A stretch of DNA of 64,000 nucleotides. Origin: Candidatus Eisenbacteria bacterium. Its GTDB lineage: Bacteria > Eisenbacteria > RBG-16-71-46 > CAIMUX01 > JAHJDP01. The DNA lies in NCBI GenBank assembly GCA_018831195.1, contig JAHJDP010000095.1, forward strand, positions 1-64,000. The letters are read 5' to 3'. A program made the translations under genes and the position numbers. Every line of letters begins with the position of its first letter. The first letter of the stretch is position 1. Shown here piece after piece: positions 53,151 to 63,995 of this stretch. The notes beneath the pieces were generated by a model that worked only from the letters and a program-made list of their open reading frames with translations, ran no database searches and was not told the DNA's origin.

Positions 53151-53615
53151 ATGTCTTCTGATGAAACCGCCATTTTGGCGCAATTCCGAGAATTCCTGGC
53201 GACGCGAAGCCTCCGGATGACGAAAGAGCGGGAATCGCTCGTTAGGGAAATCCTTCGCGCCCCCCGGCACTTTGAAGCGGAACAGCTGATCCAACGACTG
53301 CGCCGCAGCCGGCGCCGTGTCAGCCGGGCCACCGTCTACCGGACGCTGATGCTCCTGGAGGAATGCGGCATCCTTCGCAAGTCGACATTCGGCCATGATC
53401 GCAGCTTTTACGAAGCTGTTCTCAATGAGGGACATCATGATCACCTCATCTGTCTGAGCTGTGGATCCATTGAGGAGTTCCAATCGCCTCAAATCGAAGC
53501 CAACCAAACAAGGATCTGCCAAGACAGAGGGTTTGAGCTCATCGACCATGTCCATGAGATGTACGGCCTTTGCCCCAAATGCTTGATTAAATCTGAATCC
53601 CAGGCACAGGCGTGA
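53151..53615 (+). CDS. fur: Fur-family metal-dependent regulator
   Basis: 154 aa. A winged helix spans about 10-85 (TKERESLVREILRAPRHFEAEQL, then VSRATVYRTLMLLEECGIL). The metal motif HHDHLICLSCG follows, and a second CxxC near the C-terminus (LCPKC) gives a structural zinc site. It is of the Fur/PerR/Zur type; the feoB gene downstream (overlap of 4 nt) makes iron the likely metal. It starts at ATG 53151 with AAAGGGAA upstream. Confidence 0.93.
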   Translation: MSSDETAILAQFREFLATRSLRMTKERESLVREILRAPRHFEAEQLIQRLRRSRRRVSRATVYRTLMLLEECGILRKSTFGHDRSFYEAVLNEGHHDHLICLSCGSIEEFQSPQIEANQTRICQDRGFELIDHVHEMYGLCPKCLIKSESQAQA

Positions 53616-55753
53616 AGAAATCGATTGAATCAAAATCCCCCAATCCGCCTGAATCGACCCATTCCCTTCTTCTGGTGGGGCAATCCAATGTTGGCAAGAG
53701 CGCCATCTTTGGCGCCTTGACGAACCGTTATGTCGCGGTCTCAAACTATCCCGGTACAACGGTGGAGGTCACTCAGGGAGTCGCAAAGTTTAAGGACCGG
53801 GATGCGACCATCCTGGACACACCGGGAACGAACTCATTGCTTCCGATGAGTAATGATGAACGAGTGACACGGGATATCCTCATGACCCATCCTACGGCGG
53901 ATATCATCCAGGTCGGCGACGGCAAGAACCTTTCCAGAACCCTTCATTTGACATTAGAGCTGGCCGAGGCGGGCCGATCGATCGTGCTCGTCCTGAATAT
54001 GCTCGATGAAGCCCGGGCGCGGGGGATCCGGATCGATACGCAAAAGCTGCATCAACAAGTGGGATGTCCCGTTGTCGCCACCGTGGCGATACGACGCCAG
54101 GGGTTCCGGCAGCTGATTTCAACGCAACCCGCACCGGCCCACGCTGTGACGGCGATCCAATACCCCCTGGTCATCGAGCATGCCATCGCTGATTTGGAAG
54201 ACCTCTTGCCGTCTGATACGGGACTGACGCCTCGGGCCCTCGCCCTTCTCATTCTTCAGAGCGACGAGTCTCTGGCCGATTGGCTGCGCGAGAAACTGTC
54301 CCTGGAGATTTTGGGACGTTTGGAAGGGATCCGCGCCGTAACGGAACGCAAGGCCGGACGGCCTCTCAGCGAAATAATCTTTAACGCCCGAAATGAGAGA
54401 GTGGCCGCGATCCTGGACAAGTGTTTTCAACAAACGGTCCAGCGAACCTCTGGATGGAGCCGCCGTCTCGGAGGTTGGTCGAGTCATCCCGTCAAGGGTC
54501 TCTTCATCCTCGCCCTCATACTTTATTTTTCCTTTTGGTTCGTCGGTTTGCTGGGGGCCGGAACCCTGGTTGATCTCATGGAAACCGGGCTCTTTGGCCA
54601 AGCCATCAGCCCCCTCGCCATCAAGGCCACCGACAGCATCTTACCCTTCCCGCATCAGCATGATGTTGAGGAGACCGGTTGGGAATTAAAAATCCCCCTG
54701 ACCCCACAAACCTCGCTTCCGCTTGGAGTGGGTCATAAGACGGAAGCTCTACAGCCGACTTATACAATAACGGGCGAATTAACGAACCTTCAAAAATCCT
54801 TCCAGATTCTACACGATTTTCTCGTGGGACCTTTCGGCCTTTTCACCATGGCGCTGGCTTATGGATTTGCAATTATCCTTCCGATTGTGGGCACCTTCTT
54901 CCTGCTCTTCAGCCTCATGGAGGACTCCGGCTATCTTCCCCGATTGGCCGTCATGGTCAATTCACTCTTCCGCAAGATGGGGCTCAACGGCCGCGCGGTC
55001 CTTCCCCTTGTCTTGGGACTCGGCTGCGATACAATGGCCACAATGTCGACCCGGATCCTGTCAACGAGCAAGCAGCGTATCATCACAACACTTCTTCTGG
55101 CCCTGGTTATTCCCTGCTCCGCTCAACTGGGCGTCCTTCTGGCCATGATCAGCCGCCTGACGATTTACGGGGCGCTGATCTGGACCGCTACCCTGCTGGG
55201 AATTCTTTTCGGCGTGGGACACCTCGCTTCCAAGATCATCCCGGGACCCCCGGCTGATTTTCTGATGGAAATCCCGCCGTTGAGACGGCCGGTTCTTTCC
55301 AATGTCTTCCAAAAAACCGGAGCCCGCATCATCTGGTATCTCAGAGAGGTCATTCCTCTCTTTATTCTTGGGACATTTATCCTCTTTCTTTTTGATAAAT
55401 TCCAACTTCTGGGCTGGCTTCATCGAATGGGGGCTCCTGTTGTAGAGGGAGTCCTTGGACTTCCCCGGGAAACAACGGAAGCCTTTCTTATCGGATTTCT
55501 CCGGCGGGATTACGGAGCGGTCTTTCTCCTTGATGCGGCGACAGGACCCGATGCGATACTCAATACAGCACAGGTTCTCACCAGCATGATTGTCATAACC
55601 CTGTTTGTTCCATGTATTGCGAATGTTTTCATGATAATAAAGGAATTCGGATTTCGCGTCGCTCTCATCATGATGGCCTTTATTTTCCCCTTCGCTTTTC
55701 TCGTGGGGGGAATCATACAACGTCTGGTCGGGTGGCTGGGAATCCCGGTCTGA
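53612..55753 (+). CDS. feoB: Ferrous iron transport protein FeoB
   Basis: 713 aa from GTG 53612, overlapping the fur stop (GTGA). The N-terminal GTPase has G1 GQSNVGKSAIFGALT, G2 SNYPGTTVEV, G3 ILDTPGTNSL and G4 NMLDEARARG. The membrane part contains two Gate regions (FFLLFSLMEDSGYLPRLAVM and LREVIPLFILGTFILFLF) and GLGCDTMATMSTRIL. GQSNVGKS and the PGTNSL ending differ from the common GNPNCGKT and PGxYSL, so this belongs to a divergent FeoB subgroup. It imports Fe2+ across the inner membrane. No separate feoA gene exists; a FeoA-like domain is fused to the next gene. Confidence 0.94.
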   Translation: MKKSIESKSPNPPESTHSLLLVGQSNVGKSAIFGALTNRYVAVSNYPGTTVEVTQGVAKFKDRDATILDTPGTNSLLPMSNDERVTRDILMTHPTADIIQVGDGKNLSRTLHLTLELAEAGRSIVLVLNMLDEARARGIRIDTQKLHQQVGCPVVATVAIRRQGFRQLISTQPAPAHAVTAIQYPLVIEHAIADLEDLLPSDTGLTPRALALLILQSDESLADWLREKLSLEILGRLEGIRAVTERKAGRPLSEIIFNARNERVAAILDKCFQQTVQRTSGWSRRLGGWSSHPVKGLFILALILYFSFWFVGLLGAGTLVDLMETGLFGQAISPLAIKATDSILPFPHQHDVEETGWELKIPLTPQTSLPLGVGHKTEALQPTYTITGELTNLQKSFQILHDFLVGPFGLFTMALAYGFAIILPIVGTFFLLFSLMEDSGYLPRLAVMVNSLFRKMGLNGRAVLPLVLGLGCDTMATMSTRILSTSKQRIITTLLLALVIPCSAQLGVLLAMISRLTIYGALIWTATLLGILFGVGHLASKIIPGPPADFLMEIPPLRRPVLSNVFQKTGARIIWYLREVIPLFILGTFILFLFDKFQLLGWLHRMGAPVVEGVLGLPRETTEAFLIGFLRRDYGAVFLLDAATGPDAILNTAQVLTSMIVITLFVPCIANVFMIIKEFGFRVALIMMAFIFPFAFLVGGIIQRLVGWLGIPV

Positions 55754-55780
55754 GTCCCGGTCGAATAAAGAGAGAGATTA

Positions 55781-56608
55781 ATGACAACAGAAAAGAACAA
55801 CCCGGAAGAGAACGCGGGGGAACAAAACAACCGGAACGGATTACACCACCATGCCGGCAGAAGGGAAACATTCCGGCGGGAAGAACGATTGGATGAGGGA
55901 TTGGAGTGTCTTTATGTCCTTCGCGAAAACAGACTCTGCGGGAAAGAGGATTTTCTCAAAAGGTGTTCAGAACCTGATCCAGAGCAGCTCCTGAAGGATC
56001 TTTCGGAAGAGAAGTACCTTACGATCGAAGCTGGATCCATCACCCTCACGCCGGCCGGTGAAAAGAGGGCGCGGAATATCCTCAGACGGCACCGGCTCGC
56101 GGAGACCCTCTTTCAGGATTTCCTATGTATGAGTGAAAGGGATATGGAAACAGGAGCTTGTGCTTTTGAGCATCTGCTGACGGAGGAGGCTGTCCAGCGG
56201 GTTTGTACATTTCTTGGCCACCCCTCACAATGCCCGCACGGCCGGCCAATCCCTCCCGGCGATTGCTGTCGCATCTTCAACGGCGCCAAGGATGAATCCT
56301 CGTTTGTCATTCCTCTGGCAAATTTAAATGTAGGTCAGTGGGGGAAAATAGTCTTTATGAGTCCTGGGCCGAGAAAGAGAATCGCACATCTCAGTCAATA
56401 CGGCATTGTCCCACAGGCCGTGATACAACTATTCCAGCAGCGCCCTTCTCTCTTGATTCGCATAGGCCAAACGGATTTGGCTATTGATGAGGATATCGCC
56501 AAGCAGATCTTCGTTCAACCCTGTACAACACCGCCCATTGAGGGAGAGGAACCTCAGGCGACGCGGGGTTGGGGGTTCCGGCGCCGGCTTCGCCGACGCG
56601 GCCGGTAA
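55781..56608 (+). CDS. DtxR-family metalloregulator with FeoA domain
   Basis: 275 aa. A polar N-terminus (1-35) precedes a winged helix (about 40-95: YVLRENRLCGKEDFLKR). The DtxR dimerisation helices follow with metal ligands in RHRLAETLFQDFLCMSERD, ETGACAFEHLLTEEAVQRV and GHPSQCPHGRPIPPGDCC. Residues about 175-250 form an SH3-like FeoA domain (IPLANLNVGQWGKIVFMS). An arginine-rich tail follows. It is probably an iron- or manganese-dependent repressor with the FeoA function built in, 28 bp after feoB. Its last 55 bp overlap the convergent sigma-54 activator gene. Confidence 0.87.
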   Translation: MTTEKNNPEENAGEQNNRNGLHHHAGRRETFRREERLDEGLECLYVLRENRLCGKEDFLKRCSEPDPEQLLKDLSEEKYLTIEAGSITLTPAGEKRARNILRRHRLAETLFQDFLCMSERDMETGACAFEHLLTEEAVQRVCTFLGHPSQCPHGRPIPPGDCCRIFNGAKDESSFVIPLANLNVGQWGKIVFMSPGPRKRIAHLSQYGIVPQAVIQLFQQRPSLLIRIGQTDLAIDEDIAKQIFVQPCTTPPIEGEEPQATRGWGFRRRLRRRGR

Positions 56609-58053
56609 CGCTGAGGTCCCGGTAGTTCAATCTCCAAGCGTTTGAGTCGGTACCGCAATTGCCCCCGCCCCATCTTCAGCTGCCGGGCCGCCTCGGAAAT
56701 ATTGCCCCCCACTTTAAGAAGCGCCGTGTTTAAAACCGCTCGTTCAATATCGTCCCAGGCCACCGGCTCATTCGGGAGTTCTACCCTTAGTCCCCCTCCC
56801 AGAGTGGCCGGATGGGCGGGATCAAAACCGAATGCGGCCGCAGGGAGAGCGGCTGGGGGGAGATGGGCGCCCTCTTCATTTCGTGCAACATGCCGGACAA
56901 GATCGATCGGAAGATGTTCCAGATCCAGTATGGGAATCTCTTTGTGGAGAAGAACACAGCGCTCGATCACATTTTCCAATTCCCGCACATTTCCAGGCCA
57001 TGGATATCGTACAAGTGTTTCCAGGGCGCGTTCTGAGAGTCCCGTGATGCGCGCGCCGAGGCGCCGGACATTGAGCTTGGTGAAATGCTCCACTAGAAGA
57101 GATATATCGGAACGGCGCTCGACAAGTGAGGGGATTCGTAATGTTAAAACATTGAGCCGGTGATAAAGATCCTCCCGGAACAGACCCCGCCGGACATCGC
57201 TTTCAAGATCCCTATGGGTAGCGGCGACCAGCCTCACATCGACCTGAATCTCCTGCAGCCCCTGCACTCTCCTGAAGGAGCGCTGGTCGAGAAATTTTAG
57301 AATCCGCACCTGCAGCGTGGGCTCCAGCTCGCCGATTTCGTCAAGGAAGACGGTGCCGCCGTTCGCCAATTCCAAGAGACCCGGCTTCTGATGCGTTGCT
57401 CCCGTAAAGGCGCCCTTCTCATGACCAAAAAGCTCCGATTCCAGAAGGGCGACCGGCAGCGAACCACAATTGATATCGAGGAAGGGGCCGCCCGATCTCG
57501 GGCTCTCTTCATGAATCGCGCGGGCAAAGAGCTGTTTTCCGGTCCCTGTGTTGCCGCGGATCAAGACCGTCGTCTGCGAGCTGGCGCCGGCCTTTCGAGC
57601 TGTTTCCAATACTTCCAAGAAGGCCGGGTCCTCCCCGATCAGATTCTTAAAACTCGATTCCGAACGGGGGGAGCGTGTCCCTTCCCTCATCCGGGACATG
57701 AGGGAACGCACACCTCGTGAGATGATCTCTAACAAGTGATCCTGATCGACCGGCTGTCCCAACCAGGTCCGCACACCCCAGGATTCCAATTCCTCCGGGT
57801 TCGGCGGATCCGTGCCCGGCGTCATCAGGATGATCTGGCACGACCTCCGTGCGGCTTTGATCCTCGGCACCCATCGAGCCGCCGCAATCAAACCGGGAAG
57901 ATCGATAATCGCCAGATCGCAGACAATCGGATCACTCGAATCAAGATCATTCGTTGGCTGACTGATCAGCTTCAGTGGGTGGGGTCTGAGATAGGTCAGG
58001 ATCCGTTCATTCAGTGCCTTGTCATTCGTCAGGATGAGGGCGGTTGGTTCCAT
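56554..58053 (-). CDS. NtrC-type sigma-54 activator with degenerate receiver domain
   Basis: 499 aa from ATG 58053, which follows AGGAGA by 9 nt; the frame extends upstream into grpE, with which this start overlaps by 32 nt. Residues about 1-125 look like a receiver. The acidic pair is TNDK, the phosphoacceptor-like aspartate in LAIIDLPG is kept, and the conserved lysine is replaced (WLGQPVD). The AAA+ domain has GNTGTGKQLFARAIHEESP (Walker A), ELFGHEKGAFTGATHQ with the sigma-54-contacting GAFTGA, and TVFLDEIGELEP. A Fis-type HTH ends it (ISEAARQLKMGRGQLRYRLKRL). It is the last gene of the dnaK run. Confidence 0.92.
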   Translation of the reverse strand: MEPTALILTNDKALNERILTYLRPHPLKLISQPTNDLDSSDPIVCDLAIIDLPGLIAAARWVPRIKAARRSCQIILMTPGTDPPNPEELESWGVRTWLGQPVDQDHLLEIISRGVRSLMSRMREGTRSPRSESSFKNLIGEDPAFLEVLETARKAGASSQTTVLIRGNTGTGKQLFARAIHEESPRSGGPFLDINCGSLPVALLESELFGHEKGAFTGATHQKPGLLELANGGTVFLDEIGELEPTLQVRILKFLDQRSFRRVQGLQEIQVDVRLVAATHRDLESDVRRGLFREDLYHRLNVLTLRIPSLVERRSDISLLVEHFTKLNVRRLGARITGLSERALETLVRYPWPGNVRELENVIERCVLLHKEIPILDLEHLPIDLVRHVARNEEGAHLPPAALPAAAFGFDPAHPATLGGGLRVELPNEPVAWDDIERAVLNTALLKVGGNISEAARQLKMGRGQLRYRLKRLEIELPGPQRYRPRRRSRRRNPQPRVA

Positions 58054-58747
58054 CGGGTGATCTCTCCTCAGGATCGCACGCTTCGGCTTCCTCCCGGGAT
58101 ACCTCATCCTGCTGCGTCGCGGCGGGGCCGGTCGAGACCATCACCCGGGCCGGTCGAAGCAGCCTTTTATCGAAATGGTACCCTCGTTCGAAGATATCGA
58201 GCACGTGCTGAGCCGGAATCTCTTCAGACGGAAGGGCCCCAATGGCTTCTTGGAAAGCGGGATCAAACCCGTCCCCTACAGCCATCCCTATGGGTTCCAA
58301 CCCTTCCCTACTCAAGATTTCGGCCAATCGACGCAGGATCGTAAGGAGAGCCTCACTATCCGATCGTTCCCCTTCAGAGAATGACTTTTGCGCCCGGTCG
58401 TAGTCATCAAGGACAGGAAGAATCTTCAGTAGTAGCCGGCCGCGGGACAGCCGGTCTTGATCCTCCGCCTCCCGGCGGGCTCTTTTCCGAAAATTATCGA
58501 ACTCTGCCAGGAGGCGCTGATACTTATCGAGGAGCTCCAACTCTCTATAGGATCTTTGCTCTTCCTCAGATCCCGGCTCTTCATCCTGGGTAAGGCCCAC
58601 GACCTTTCCCGTCAAGCCCTCCTCGTTTTCCGATGGGGTCATCGATGGGGTTGAATCGTTCGAGGTCGCTGCCACGGCATCTTTAACCTCAGCTTCACCC
58701 TGCTCTTTTCCGCGTCTGCCCATTTTGCCGCGAACCATCAGTGTCAC
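58022..58747 (-). CDS. grpE: Nucleotide exchange factor GrpE
   Basis: 241 aa. An acidic disordered N-terminus (about 1-65) precedes the coiled coil (YQRLLAEFDNFRKRARREAED). The beta-wing contains GLEPIGMAVGDGFDPAFQEAIG and VLDIFERGYHFDKRLLRPARVMVS. GrpE releases ADP from DnaK. It lies 24 bp downstream of a DUF1844 gene, which itself follows dnaK. It overlaps the sigma-54 activator start by 32 nt. No dnaJ or hrcA is present nearby. Confidence 0.93.
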   Translation of the reverse strand: MTLMVRGKMGRRGKEQGEAEVKDAVAATSNDSTPSMTPSENEEGLTGKVVGLTQDEEPGSEEEQRSYRELELLDKYQRLLAEFDNFRKRARREAEDQDRLSRGRLLLKILPVLDDYDRAQKSFSEGERSDSEALLTILRRLAEILSREGLEPIGMAVGDGFDPAFQEAIGALPSEEIPAQHVLDIFERGYHFDKRLLRPARVMVSTGPAATQQDEVSREEAEACDPEERSPDGTNRPHPDE

Positions 58748-58771: not shown

Positions 58772-59143
58772 TTATCCTTCCGGCTTATCCTCAGAAGGGG
58801 AAGTTTCCTCTCCCCCCTGACCGCCGGCACCTTCAGCCGACACCGTTCCATCGACGGCGGCGTCATCTCCCTTTTCCTTCGATGATCTATTCATCTCTTC
58901 TACATAGGCCAATCGCAACTGCGTCAGGGATTGTTCAAGGAACTGCGATTCCGTTTTGTTCAACCGTCCGGAAGTCTTGTCACTCAACATGCCCAGCATG
59001 TCGATTTGAAACCGGGCCAGATCAAGATTGCGTTCAGTCTTTCCCGTCACCGGATGTTCGGCTTTCCCCAATCCCATCCAGGCCGCGTCCCGAAGCTGGG
59101 ATGCAAGTATGAGAAAAAGATGATCCTGCTCTTCTGTGGCCAT
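58772..59143 (-). CDS. DUF1844 protein
   Basis: 123 aa. The first 85 residues fit DUF1844: FLILASQLRDAAWMGLGKAE, PVTGKTERNLDLARFQIDML and FLEQSLTQLRLAYVEEM. The tail is acidic and glycine-rich. The family is small, cytoplasmic and of unknown function. Finding it between dnaK and grpE is unusual in my knowledge and suggests a role in protein quality control. Confidence 0.85.
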   Translation of the reverse strand: MATEEQDHLFLILASQLRDAAWMGLGKAEHPVTGKTERNLDLARFQIDMLGMLSDKTSGRLNKTESQFLEQSLTQLRLAYVEEMNRSSKEKGDDAAVDGTVSAEGAGGQGGEETSPSEDKPEG

Positions 59144-59191: not shown

Positions 59192-61132
59192 TTACTTCTC
59201 TGTTTCGTCCACAACCTCATAATCAGCGTCGATCGGTTCCTCGCCACTCTTCTCCTTATCCGGGGTTTGAGGAGCTTGGCCGGCGGCGCCATCGGGACCA
59301 GGGGCACCCGTCTCCGGACCACCAGCGGTCGCCTGCGAGTAAATCTTCGATGCGGCTTCATGCCAGGTCTTCTGCAGCTTTTCCGTCGCACCCTTGATCT
59401 GCTCGACGCTGTCCGATTTCAATGCCGTCCGTAGATCTTCCAGAGAACTCTCAACCGACGCCTTGGTGTCCGCATCCAGCTTGCCTTCCATATCTTTCAA
59501 ATTCTTTTCGGTGCCGTAAACCAGTTGTTCACCGTTATTGCGCGTCTCTACTGACTCCCGGCGTTTCTGATCCTCGTCAGCGTGCGCTTCGGCATCTCCT
59601 ACCATCCGATCAATCTCTTCACCAGTGAGACCACTGGAGCCCTGGATCCGGATGGACTGCTCTTTGCTCGTCGCCTTGTCCTTGGCCGACACATTTAGGA
59701 CCCCATTGGCATCGATATCAAAGGTCACTTCAACCTGGGGAATGCCGCGCGGCGCCGGTGGGATACCGTCGAGCATGAATTTCCCAAGGCTCTTGTTATC
59801 CACCGCCATGGGACGCTCGCCCTGAAGCACATGAACCTCCACACTGGGCTGGTTGTCACCGGCCGTAGAGAAGATATTGCTCTTCCGTGTGGGGATGGTC
59901 GTATTCCTGTCGATCAGCTTTGTAAAAACACCACCAAGGGTCTCGATACCGAGCGACAGCGGTGTTACATCCAGCAACACCATGTCCTTATCTTTGAAAT
60001 CGCCCGCCAGGATCCCGCCCTGAATGGCGGCGCCGAGGGCTACGACCTCATCAGGATTAACGCCCTTGTTCGGCTCTTTCCCGAAAAGCTCCCGGACGAG
60101 CTCCTGAACGCGCGGGATTCGCGTGGAACCTCCGACGAGAATGACCTCATCGATCCCCGCCGTGTCAAGCCCGCTGTCTTTCAATGCCCGCCGGCAAGGT
60201 CCTTCCACACGATGAAAGAGATCATCCACCAGCTGCTCAAACTTCGCCCGCGTCAGGGTCATATTGAAATGCTTCGGACCGCTGCTGTCGGCCGTCACAT
60301 AGGGAAGACTGATTTCGGTTTGGGGCGTCGAGGAAAGTTCACATTTCGCCTTTTCCGCGGCCTCCTTAAGCCGCTGCAACGCCATCGGATCCTGGCGCAG
60401 ATCGACACCGTCCGACTTCTTGAATTCCGTGACCATCCAATCCATGATCCGCTGATCAAAGTCATCTCCACCGAGATGCGTATCGCCGCTGGTCGCTTTG
60501 ACCTCAAAGACACCCTCACCGATTTCGAGGATGGAAATGTCAAAGGTCCCTCCACCCAGATCGAAGACGGCGATCTTTTCATCTTTCTTTTTATCGAGGC
60601 CATAAGCCAGGGCTGCCGCTGTCGGTTCGTTGATGATTCTCTTCACTTCCAGACCGGCGATCTTCCCGGCTTCCTGTGTCGCCTTTCTCTGCGCATCGTT
60701 AAAGTAGGCCGGCACGGTGATCACGGCCTGTGTAATCTTTTCACCAAGATGGCTCTCAGCGGTTTCCTTGAGTTTGCGCAGGACCTTGGCTGAAATCTCC
60801 GGTGGGGAGTAGATCTTGTCACCGATCTTAACGCGCGCCGTATCATTCGGCCCCCGAACAACGTTATATTGTACCGTCGAGATTTCGGTGGCCACCTCAT
60901 CGAACTTCCGGCCCATGAAGCGCTTGATCGACATGATTGTGTTCTGGGGATTGGTAATCGCCTGGCGTTTTGCGAGAACCCCAACAGGGATTTCTCCATC
61001 CGACCGGAAGGCCACAACCGACGGGGTCGTCCGGTTCCCCTCCTCATTCGTAATGACGTGCGGCTCCCCACCTTCCACAACGGCGACGACGGAGTTTGTC
61101 GTGCCCAAATCGATTCCAATGATCTTTGCCAT
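59192..61132 (-). CDS. dnaK: Chaperone DnaK (Hsp70)
   Basis: 646 aa from ATG 61132, with GAGGTG 6 nt upstream; an ATG 9 bp before is less well placed. The actin-like ATPase has [32 protein letters not shown] and [14 protein letters not shown]. The substrate domain begins near residue 390 ([19 protein letters not shown]), and the lid ends in a disordered acidic tail ([16 protein letters not shown]). DnaK folds and protects proteins with GrpE and a J protein. It is preceded by a sigma-54-type promoter (61202-61219) and an upstream dyad. Confidence 0.97.
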
Positions 61133-61201
61133 GGTCTTCACCTCTTCTTTTTCTGAATCTCATCCCTCCAGCCGATCTGGCCGGGTCAACGGGTTTAATA
61201 G

Positions 61202-61219
61202 ATGCAAGGAACATACCGG
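61202..61219 (-). promoter_or_regulatory. Putative sigma-54 (RpoN) promoter of dnaK
   Basis: The minus strand reads CCGGTATGTTCCTTGCAT. GG (-24, 61217-61216) and GC (-12, 61205-61204) are exactly 10 nt apart, and the -12 block is a full TTGCA. The -24 block, GGTATG, departs from TGGCACG. It lies about 70 nt before the dnaK ATG. Two sigma-54 activator genes flank the dnaK group. Confidence 0.55.
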
Positions 61220-61319
61220 AATAGAATAATCGGAAAAATTATTCATCTTGTTGTAAATTAATGGGTTATAGTCACTCTGTCATTTAGAAAATCGGAGAAA
61301 ATCACAAAACGTTCAACAT

Positions 61320-61341
61320 TGAAACGTCACGGGTCGTTTCA
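61320..61341. promoter_or_regulatory. Dyad upstream of dnaK, candidate activator-binding site
   Basis: TGAAACG-N8-CGTTTCA has perfect 7-bp arms. It lies about 105-135 bp upstream of the -24/-12 elements of the predicted dnaK promoter, a usual distance for sigma-54 enhancers. It overlaps the stop codon of the activator gene. A transcript hairpin is the alternative; no T-run follows. Confidence 0.45.
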
Positions 61342-62451
61342 TTTCGGAACATCTAGGTTGTATTGCTTCATTTTTCTCCAAAGGGTCGTCCGAGATATCC
61401 CCAGTGAGTCGGCGGTTTTCCCCAGATTTCCGGCCATCTTTCGAAGAACCTTTTGGATATGAAGGGCCTCCACATCTTCCAGCGAGAGGGTCTCGGGATA
61501 CCCCTCGTGCTGTCCGGCTCCCAGGCGGGGGAGCCCCCGCTCCGTTATCTCCGGAGGGAGATCCTGGGGCATAATGACATCGCCATTACTAATGGCCAGA
61601 CCACGCTCCATGGCATTTTCCAGCTCCCTTACATTTCCCGGCCAGGTGTAATGCATCAGATACCCCCAGGCCGGATCGGAAAGCCGCGGCACCTCACGAT
61701 TCTGCTCGCGGGCCATCCTCTCAAGGAAGTAGCGGGCCAGGTAGGGGATATCCTCCCGCCGCTCTCGAAGGGCCGGAATGTGCAACCGGAGGACATTCAG
61801 GCGATAGAAGAGATCTTCTCTAAAGCGGCCTTCCTCCATCTCCCGCCGTAAATCCTTATTCGTGGCGGTGATGATTCTAGCGTCGACGCGGAAGGAATCC
61901 TCGGAACCCACGGGCCGGACCATTCTATCCTGTAAGACCCTCAACAGCTTCACCTGGCTTGGCGGGCTCATCTCTCCAATCTCATCGAGAAAAAGGGTGC
62001 CACCATCCGCGAGGAGAAAGAGACCCTTCTTCTCACGATAGGCGTCGGTGAAAGCCCCGCGCACATGACCGAAGAGCTCGGATTCGAAAAGCGCATCCGG
62101 GATAGCACCGGTGTTGACGGGAACAAAGGGCCCACGGCTTCTACGGCTTTGGTAATGTATAACCCGGGCGATTTTCTCTTTTCCCGTGCCGCTCTCGCCG
62201 GTGACGAGAATCGGACTTTCCGTCGGCGCGATCCGATCCACAAGGTGAAGAATCTTCCGCATCGCGTGGGAGGCCCCGACCACATACTCGGAAACGGTGT
62301 CAGACGCCGAATCTGAATCCCCCCGCACCTCTTCCGCCGCTGGATTCAGGGAAACTCCCAATGGCAATGACTCGCCCGAGCGGGGCTCTGAGGAAGAAGG
62401 GCCCTCTTTATGATTCCCTGGCCGGCGGGGCTTTGAATTCGAATCTTTCAT
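61339..62451 (-). CDS. Sigma-54-dependent transcriptional activator without a sensor domain
   Basis: 370 aa. A short polar N-terminus (about 1-50) has no receiver, GAF or PAS domain, as in PspF. The AAA+ domain has VTGESGTGKEKIARVIHYQS (Walker A), ELFGHVRGAFTDAYREK (a GAFTGA variant with aspartate for the second glycine), TLFLDEIGEMSPP (Walker B) and the R-finger region RLNVLRLHIPALRERREDI. A Fis-type HTH is at the end (LGKTADSLGISRTTLWRKM). It starts 2 bp after the lysS stop, and dnaK follows about 200 bp later. Without a sensor it may be controlled by a partner protein. Confidence 0.92.
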   Translation of the reverse strand: MKDSNSKPRRPGNHKEGPSSSEPRSGESLPLGVSLNPAAEEVRGDSDSASDTVSEYVVGASHAMRKILHLVDRIAPTESPILVTGESGTGKEKIARVIHYQSRRSRGPFVPVNTGAIPDALFESELFGHVRGAFTDAYREKKGLFLLADGGTLFLDEIGEMSPPSQVKLLRVLQDRMVRPVGSEDSFRVDARIITATNKDLRREMEEGRFREDLFYRLNVLRLHIPALRERREDIPYLARYFLERMAREQNREVPRLSDPAWGYLMHYTWPGNVRELENAMERGLAISNGDVIMPQDLPPEITERGLPRLGAGQHEGYPETLSLEDVEALHIQKVLRKMAGNLGKTADSLGISRTTLWRKMKQYNLDVPK

Positions 62452-62453
62452 GC

Positions 62454-63995
62454 CTATTCCGGGAAGCGATCCTCAGGATCCGGAGGCGTATCCAACGGTT
62501 TGAGATGAGGGAAGAGAACGACATCCCGGATCGAATCAGAGCCGGTTAGGAGCATGATGAGCCGATCCATCCCGATTCCCACCCCGGCCGCCGGCGGCAT
62601 CCCATGCTCCATTGCGGTCATAAAGTCATCATCGAGGGTTTGCGCTTCCTCATCTCCCTGCTCGCGCAGCTTCATCTGGGCTTCGAGACGATCGCGCTGG
62701 TCCCGGGGATCGTTCAATTCCGTAAAGGCATTCGCAAACTCTTGCCCATTGATAAAGAGCTCGAAACGTTCGACCACACTCCCATCTCCGCCGCGGACCT
62801 TCTTGGCCAGTGGTGAAATTTCCCGGGGATAATCCATCACAAATGTCGGTTGCATCAATTGCGGGCAGACCGTGGCGTCGAACAATGCTTCAATGAGGTG
62901 GCCGCGCTGGTGCCACCCGGGCGCTTCCTTTCCTCTTTGCTTGATCATTCCACGGATCCGCTCTTCTGATTCTGTCATCGGATCGGCTCCCAAAACCTCA
63001 CGCACAGCCTCAACCATTCGGATTTTCCGAAAAGGCGTTTCGAGGTCAATTACCTCACCGCCCCAGCTGATCCGATATCCGCCTGTGACCTCGAATATCA
63101 AACGACGGAAGATCTCTTCTACAAAGTCCATCGCGTCATGGTAGTCGGCATACGCCCAATAGAATTCAAGCAGGGTGAATTCTGGATTGTGCATCCGGTC
63201 GATCCCCTCATTCCGGAAGACTTTTCCAATCTCATAGACCCGCTCCAACCCGCCGACGAGCAGTTTCTTCAACGGGATCTCTTCAGCAATCCTCAGAAAG
63301 AGGTCTACGCCCAAGGCGTTATGATGGGTTGTGAAGGGTTGCGCCATGGCCCCGCCATACCGGTACTGAAGGACAGGCGTTTCAACCTCCATAAAACCCT
63401 TCTCGTCGAGCAGGCGGCGCGTGATGGAGAGAATCTTTGACCGGGTCTTAAAAACCTCACGAATCTCAGGATTCACCATAAGATCGATGTAGCGATACCG
63501 GTACCGCGCCTCCCGATCCTGAAAGGCATCATACCGCACGCCATCCTTCTCCTTCACAACCGGCATCGGCCGCAAGCTTTTCGACAAAATGTCCGCTCGC
63601 ACAGCGCGCACGGAAATCTCGCCGGTCCGCGTCCGGAAGGGGACCCCCTCGACGCCCAGAAGATCTCCCAAATCGACCTGCTTGAAGATCTCATACTCGG
63701 TCTCACCGACTTCATCCCGCCGCACATAGATTTGGATCCGGCCGGAGGGATCGGTGATATGACAGAAGGAAGCCTTGCCCATCTCCCGGAGAGCCACAAT
63801 ACGGCCCGAGCAACGGACGCTCCCTTTCTCCTCGAGTTCTTGGAAGTTATCGAGAATGTCCTGCGAAAGATGCGTCCGCCGGAACGTATGAGGATAGGGA
63901 TTGCCGCCCAGCGCCTCTATCCGGTCGATCTTTTCCCGTCTGGAGCGGAGATGCTCCCCCATCCGCTCTTCGTCGTGCTGGTCCTTTTCACTCAC
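62454..63995 (-). CDS. lysS: Lysyl-tRNA synthetase, class II
   Basis: 513 aa, complete, from GTG 63995, only 5 bp from the window edge. The N-terminal OB domain (about 55-150: VRCSGRIVALREMGKASFCHI) binds the anticodon. The class II motifs follow: motif 1 EVFKTRSKILSITRRLLDEKG, motif 2 GKVFRNEGIDRMHNPEFTLLE and motif 3 GVGIGMDRLIMLLTG. It charges tRNA-Lys. The upstream region that might carry a regulatory leader is outside the window. It is followed after 2 bp by a sigma-54 activator gene. Confidence 0.97.
   Translation of the reverse strand: MSEKDQHDEERMGEHLRSRREKIDRIEALGGNPYPHTFRRTHLSQDILDNFQELEEKGSVRCSGRIVALREMGKASFCHITDPSGRIQIYVRRDEVGETEYEIFKQVDLGDLLGVEGVPFRTRTGEISVRAVRADILSKSLRPMPVVKEKDGVRYDAFQDREARYRYRYIDLMVNPEIREVFKTRSKILSITRRLLDEKGFMEVETPVLQYRYGGAMAQPFTTHHNALGVDLFLRIAEEIPLKKLLVGGLERVYEIGKVFRNEGIDRMHNPEFTLLEFYWAYADYHDAMDFVEEIFRRLIFEVTGGYRISWGGEVIDLETPFRKIRMVEAVREVLGADPMTESEERIRGMIKQRGKEAPGWHQRGHLIEALFDATVCPQLMQPTFVMDYPREISPLAKKVRGGDGSVVERFELFINGQEFANAFTELNDPRDQRDRLEAQMKLREQGDEEAQTLDDDFMTAMEHGMPPAAGVGIGMDRLIMLLTGSDSIRDVVLFPHLKPLDTPPDPEDRFPE

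Follow-up and report, generated by a model that had tools for sequence, protein, structure and literature searches.

A predicted sigma-54 promoter with tandem candidate activator sites upstream of dnaK in an Eisenbacteria contig and related genomes

The locus studied here raises the question of how this organism switches on its main dnaK operon. In textbook cases dnaK is controlled by sigma-32 or by HrcA, and an enhancer-type switch, which leaks little without its activator and spends ATP at each opening event, is an unusual choice for an essential chaperone. The original prediction had proposed that chaperone expression in the window (the whole 64,000-nt stretch of DNA analysed) is governed by RpoN and a dedicated activator. 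Judging from sequence and its conservation, we consider it highly probable that RpoN and the activator encoded next to dnaK, acting at two palindromes, control the dnaK operon and likely hsp20 as the main proteotoxic-stress switch.

The minus strand reads, in order, lysS, the activator gene, a 206-bp gap, dnaK, a DUF1844 protein gene, grpE and a second enhancer-binding protein gene (Table 1); domain matches bear out the claim that both genes flanking the dnaK region encode sigma-54 activators. The first of these is probably co-transcribed with lysS, an arrangement also seen elsewhere in the order. The open reading frame called for the second begins at 58107 and overlaps grpE; its true start is more likely the Met at 58053. 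The DUF1844 gene keeps its position between dnaK and grpE in several families of the class, and in Eisenbacteria SS_bin_28 it again comes after dnaK. Genes for a Fur-family regulator, FeoB and an iron-dependent-repressor/FeoA fusion are grouped at 53151-56608, on the downstream side of the chaperone genes.

Table 1 Features of the dnaK region, with positions in the window
Feature	Position	Strand	Remarks
lysS	62454-63995	-	Ends 2 bp 5' of the activator gene
Putative dedicated enhancer-binding protein gene	61339-62451	-	Sigma54_activat AAA+, AAA lid, Fis-type HTH
Distal candidate site GTTCCGAAATGAAAC	61336-61350	-	1 mismatch; centre ~-151
Earlier dyad TGAAACG-N8-CGTTTCA	61320-61341	.	Inner half-sites of the two adjacent palindromes
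Proximal candidate site GTTTCAATGTTGAAC	61311-61325	-	GTTYCA-N3-TGRAAC with 1 mismatch; centre ~-126
Predicted sigma-54 -24/-12 promoter CCGGTATGTTCCTTGCA	61203-61219	-	GG 61217-61216, GC 61205-61204
dnaK	59192-61132	-	646 aa, ATG at 61132; NF001413 and TIGR02350 above cut-off
DUF1844 protein gene	58772-59143	-	Between dnaK and grpE
grpE	58022-58747	-	
Second enhancer-binding protein gene	56554-58053	-	AAA+, HTH; end of the dnaK operon

The predicted promoter, CCGGTATGTTCCTTGCA, is a GG-N10-GC element with a TTGCA block, as originally described, and lies 71-87 nt 5' of the dnaK ATG, which places the predicted +1 near 61192 and gives a 5' UTR of ~60 nt. It scores 13.3 bits, a value that none of 300 dinucleotide-shuffled versions of the gap attains, on a matrix that approximates sigma-54 sites from the known consensus and was calibrated only by shuffles and background. 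The genome of the window encodes the sigma factor whose presence had been named as a check: rpoN was identified by a PF04552 Sigma54_DBD match (1.2e-56) at G000:C18. The earlier claim that CIRCE is missing upstream of dnaK held, the best match having 9 of 18 positions wrong and no site with at most 4 mismatches occurring across the whole window. HrcA gave no match in the order (11 genomes, the window's included), and we rejected HrcA/CIRCE control of dnaK, with no HrcA in the order and no better CIRCE match than this one. The claim that no sigma-32-like site exists stood in part: a weak match with 3 of 12 positions mismatched is present, and none of 39 genomes has an RpoH match that passes the TIGR02392 cut-off, on which count sigma-32 control was likewise rejected.

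The candidate binding unit of the activator is a 15-bp palindrome, GTTYCA-N3-TGRAAC, of which the window holds two copies 25 bp apart. An enhancer-like dyad with an N8 spacer had been described here, and its letters are indeed present; the conserved unit, however, is the pair of palindromes whose inner halves compose it. Among relatives the offset between sites ranges over 20-25 bp while the N3 palindrome stays constant, and we rejected the N8 dyad as a binding unit because its half spacing varies in this way. In other families the two sites are mostly 22 or 23 bp apart, the dyad being broken and both palindromes intact. The outer G and the outer C are each found in 39 of the 40 palindrome sites compared. 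Measured from the predicted +1, the site centres lie at -126 and -151 in the window and from -109 to -176 across the linked loci of relatives, within the ~80-180 bp upstream at which sigma-54 enhancers fall.

A search for the activator that covered 39 genomes from the order and the class returned 20 loci, the window included, at which it lies directly upstream of dnaK or of hsp20-dnaK. A sigma-54 score of at least 10 bits was found in the gap at 18 of the 19 linked relatives (19/20 with the window); the exception, L010 in G002, keeps the GG and the tandem sites and has a degenerate -12 block (TTTAT). Tandem palindromes are likewise present at 18/19 linked relatives and 19/20 loci with the window, each at most 1/301 by shuffling, with L023 as the exception. 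In family f10, each of the 12 dnaK operons read shows a sigma-54 match of at least 10 bits upstream of hsp20-dnaK (the hsp20 signature was recognised in 9/12), and the tandem sites vary in quality from 2 to 7 mismatches of 24. Conservation of GG-N10-GC in relatives, set beforehand as a refutation test, was thus found both in the linked loci and in f10. Tandem sites with at most 5 mismatches occur in 1.8% of background segments, a set that includes loci picked for single sites; ten background segments have both elements, and all ten are dnaK, hsp20 or groES promoters. The DnaK tree places the class among Gemmatimonadetes, Eisenbacteria, Zixibacteria and Bacteroidetes, and one of its members is filed under Candidatus Eisenbacteria (Eiseniibacteriota) as bacterium SS_bin_28. 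Outside the class, the dnaK genes of one Zixibacteria, one Gemmatimonadetes and two planctomycete genomes (L163, L165, L176, L179) have -24/-12 matches of at least 13 bits, located 72-86 nt 5' of the matched start, and GTTYCA sites are absent from these four loci; at the planctomycete locus L179, a different activator gene lies directly 5' of dnaK.

The protein encoded beside dnaK has the expected parts of a sigma-54 activator: an AAA+ domain (PF00158 Sigma54_activat, 2e-67) with Walker motifs GESGTGK and GTLFLDE that are conserved across orthologues, and a C-terminal Fis-type HTH (PF02954, 1e-13). No receiver or sensory domain was matched in its N-terminus, which is short and whose residues are not conserved. 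The sigma-54 contact loop, GAFTGA in its usual form, reads GAFTDA throughout the window's order, while other members of the class have GAFTGA or GSFTGA; targets have been assigned to DVU2106, a Desulfovibrio vulgaris regulator that likewise has GAFTDA (PMC4641369). PspF structures are among the structural matches of the activator, and its scores fall under the PspF NCBIfam cut-offs (253.5 vs 443.55 bits; 209.9 vs 529). In a fast tree, the dnaK-linked activators and the unlinked orthologues of f8, f10 and f11 form a clade with local SH-like support of 99; of the sequences compared, none from outside the class falls within it. The recognition helix, LG(I/V)SR-x-TLWRK, hardly varies, as would fit a conserved site. 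Throughout the order and in several families of the class, orthologues adjoin dnaK or hsp20-dnaK; in f8, f10 and f11 an activator adjoining dnaK was not found, and the assignment there therefore rests on motif and orthology.

When the genome of the window was scanned for the tandem motif at a 22-bp offset, the motif matched in one place (control 0), 5' of the genome's only Hsp20 gene, with TTGGCACAGCTTTCGCT, a sigma-54 match of 14.6 bits, between the site and the gene. With a 23-bp offset, the pattern matched once in each of 10 of 47 class genomes (control 0), by coordinates 5' of dnaK operons or hsp20, and hsp20 of other order and class members has both elements in most cases. It is very likely that the same activator drives the genome's only hsp20 gene. 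The predicted regulon, as found by pattern scans that may miss weaker sites, is dnaK and hsp20, plus groES in two relatives, which is a proteotoxic-stress set. Gene order, the class-restricted clade, the matching tandem sites and the same architecture at hsp20 together support the dedicated activator that had been proposed for dnaK.

The composition of this regulon bears on an alternative scenario in which sigma-54 and the activator serve a purpose other than heat or protein damage, such as starvation or a growth transition, and basal dnaK transcription comes from an unseen housekeeping promoter. Sigma-54 activators respond to many signals, and HrcA is still encoded in f6, in most f7 genomes and in all f10 genomes listed, both of which fit such a scenario. 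Against it stand the proteotoxic-stress character of the targets, the search of the activator-dnaK gap, in which no sigma-70 hexamer pair was found, and the lack of an HrcA or RpoH match in the window's genome; we regard it as unlikely, if still deserving weight.

The groESL genes of the same genome (L249, G000:C35, 34-1785) are preceded by a third enhancer-binding protein gene and by the related but different palindromes GTGCCAATATGGCAC and GTGCCAAAATGACAC, with no clear -24/-12 element. Related activators precede groES in G001, G004 and G010, and a -24/-12-like match occurs at groES in G002, G004, G009 and G010. The palindrome beside the groESL activator is GTGCCA-N3-TGGCAC, and because a different activator sits beside a different palindrome, each activator seems to have its own kind of site.

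This pairing is relevant to the possibility that the promoter is of the sigma-54 type and is served by the second enhancer-binding protein, or by both proteins jointly. Throughout the class the second activator, too, is linked to the dnaK operon; several relatives have a related activator downstream of dnaK, and in the tree the second activator stands in a clade of its own (8 class rows, support 99). It has a weak receiver-like N-terminus, with a Response_reg match below the cut-off (E = 0.025) and on its C-terminal part only. The tandem palindromes, however, adjoin the gene of the first activator, and the different activator and palindrome at groESL also argue against this assignment, which we judge quite improbable.

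One may also postulate that the palindromes are repressor operators or a terminator of the activator gene instead of enhancer sites. The distal site GTTCCGAAATGAAAC does overlap the end of the activator gene (final codons and stop), and a perfect single site elsewhere in the window, GTTTCAGGCTGAAAC at 2409-2423, resembles a terminator stem; yet no T-run terminator was found in the gap, its RNA folds no better than shuffles (z = +1.07), and sites in a similar distance range from the sigma-54 promoter recur at hsp20, where the activator gene is absent, so that this reading is very unlikely. The dyad as a terminator was rejected on the missing T-run and the shuffle-level fold. The copy at 2409-2423 lies inside a longer stem, GGGTTTCAGGCTGAAACCC, near an apparent minus-strand tRNA end, and is probably a terminator and not an activator site. 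It is scarcely credible that GG-N10-GC arose by chance and that dnaK is controlled in the ordinary way, since lone -24/-12 matches of at least 10 bits occur in 3.8% of 3,292 background segments, compared with 31 of 32 class dnaK operons, the window's included, nearly all with tandem sites at matching distance, a conservation that already contradicts chance.

We therefore return to control by RpoN and the adjacent activator, for which the following course of events may be proposed. Sigma-54 RNA polymerase would transcribe dnaK, the DUF1844 gene, grpE and the second activator gene from CCGGTATGTTCCTTGCA; the adjacent activator would bind the two GTTYCA-N3-TGRAAC sites, probably as dimers, and once bound would assemble an AAA+ hexamer that opens the dnaK promoter, and it would open the hsp20 promoter likewise. 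Here we infer the binding, the activation and the induction of dnaK by protein damage. As neither HrcA nor RpoH was found, it is probably the enhancer system by which the organism mainly switches on DnaK and Hsp20 under proteotoxic stress. Since the activator has no sensory domain, we further propose, speculatively, that it might be held back in trans by a factor such as free DnaK or Hsp20, in a negative feedback loop; this suggestion comes from the missing sensory domain and from analogy with PspF, sigma-32 and HrcA.

Chaperone genes with a sigma-54 promoter have precedents in Bradyrhizobium groESL3, which is under sigma-54 and NifA, and in the sigma-54-linked ibpB of Escherichia coli, although these are accessory copies or additional promoters, whereas the gene set considered here is the main dnaK operon. 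PspF, of the phage shock response, is similarly a stress activator composed of AAA+ and HTH without an N-terminal sensory domain; it differs from the present activator, which falls under the PspF cut-offs, in that its target is pspA and the target predicted here is dnaK. In Chlamydia trachomatis, sigma-66 and sigma-54 promoters have been mapped in tandem at the hrcA-grpE-dnaK operon (PMC8762339, which cites Soules et al. 2020), so that a sigma-54 promoter drives a dnaK operon there as is predicted here; in Chlamydia, however, the operon is also subject to HrcA and a housekeeping promoter, and its activator, AtoC, is of the two-component type, whereas here no HrcA or RpoH was found and the activator is adjacent and without a receiver. 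Myxococcus xanthus HsfA, an NtrC-like response regulator that is phosphorylated by HsfB, directly regulates lonD (Ueki and Inouye 2002, cited in PMC9109919); the likeness is an NtrC-like activator at a heat-shock gene, predicted in our case, and the difference is that HsfA is a response regulator acting on lonD, while the activator described here has no receiver and dnaK and hsp20 as its predicted targets. In Planctomycetota and Bacteroidota, predicted sigma-54 promoters are enriched at GroEL, IbpA/Hsp20, GroES, GrpE, DnaJ and DnaK families (Carrera-Reyna et al. 2025, PMC12316311); in the excerpt of that study, the chaperone cluster comes without a named dedicated activator or binding site, and the paper makes no mention of Eisenbacteria.

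The dedicated activator, its site and regulon, and the class-wide dnaK arrangement look undescribed in the open-licence literature, which is weak evidence because the search covered that literature only. With an activator, site and regulon defined and conserved over the class, the idea is directly testable by reconstitution, and it would bring together what has been reported piecemeal on sigma-54 and chaperone genes in Chlamydia, Planctomycetota and Bacteroidota. More broadly, and only tentatively, the class may run its cytosolic heat-shock response (dnaK, hsp20 and some groESL) mainly via sigma-54 and a constitutively made, sensorless activator that is set in trans by chaperone availability. 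If true, the DnaK-sigma-32 and GroEL-HrcA feedback loops would have an enhancer-dependent counterpart in this class.
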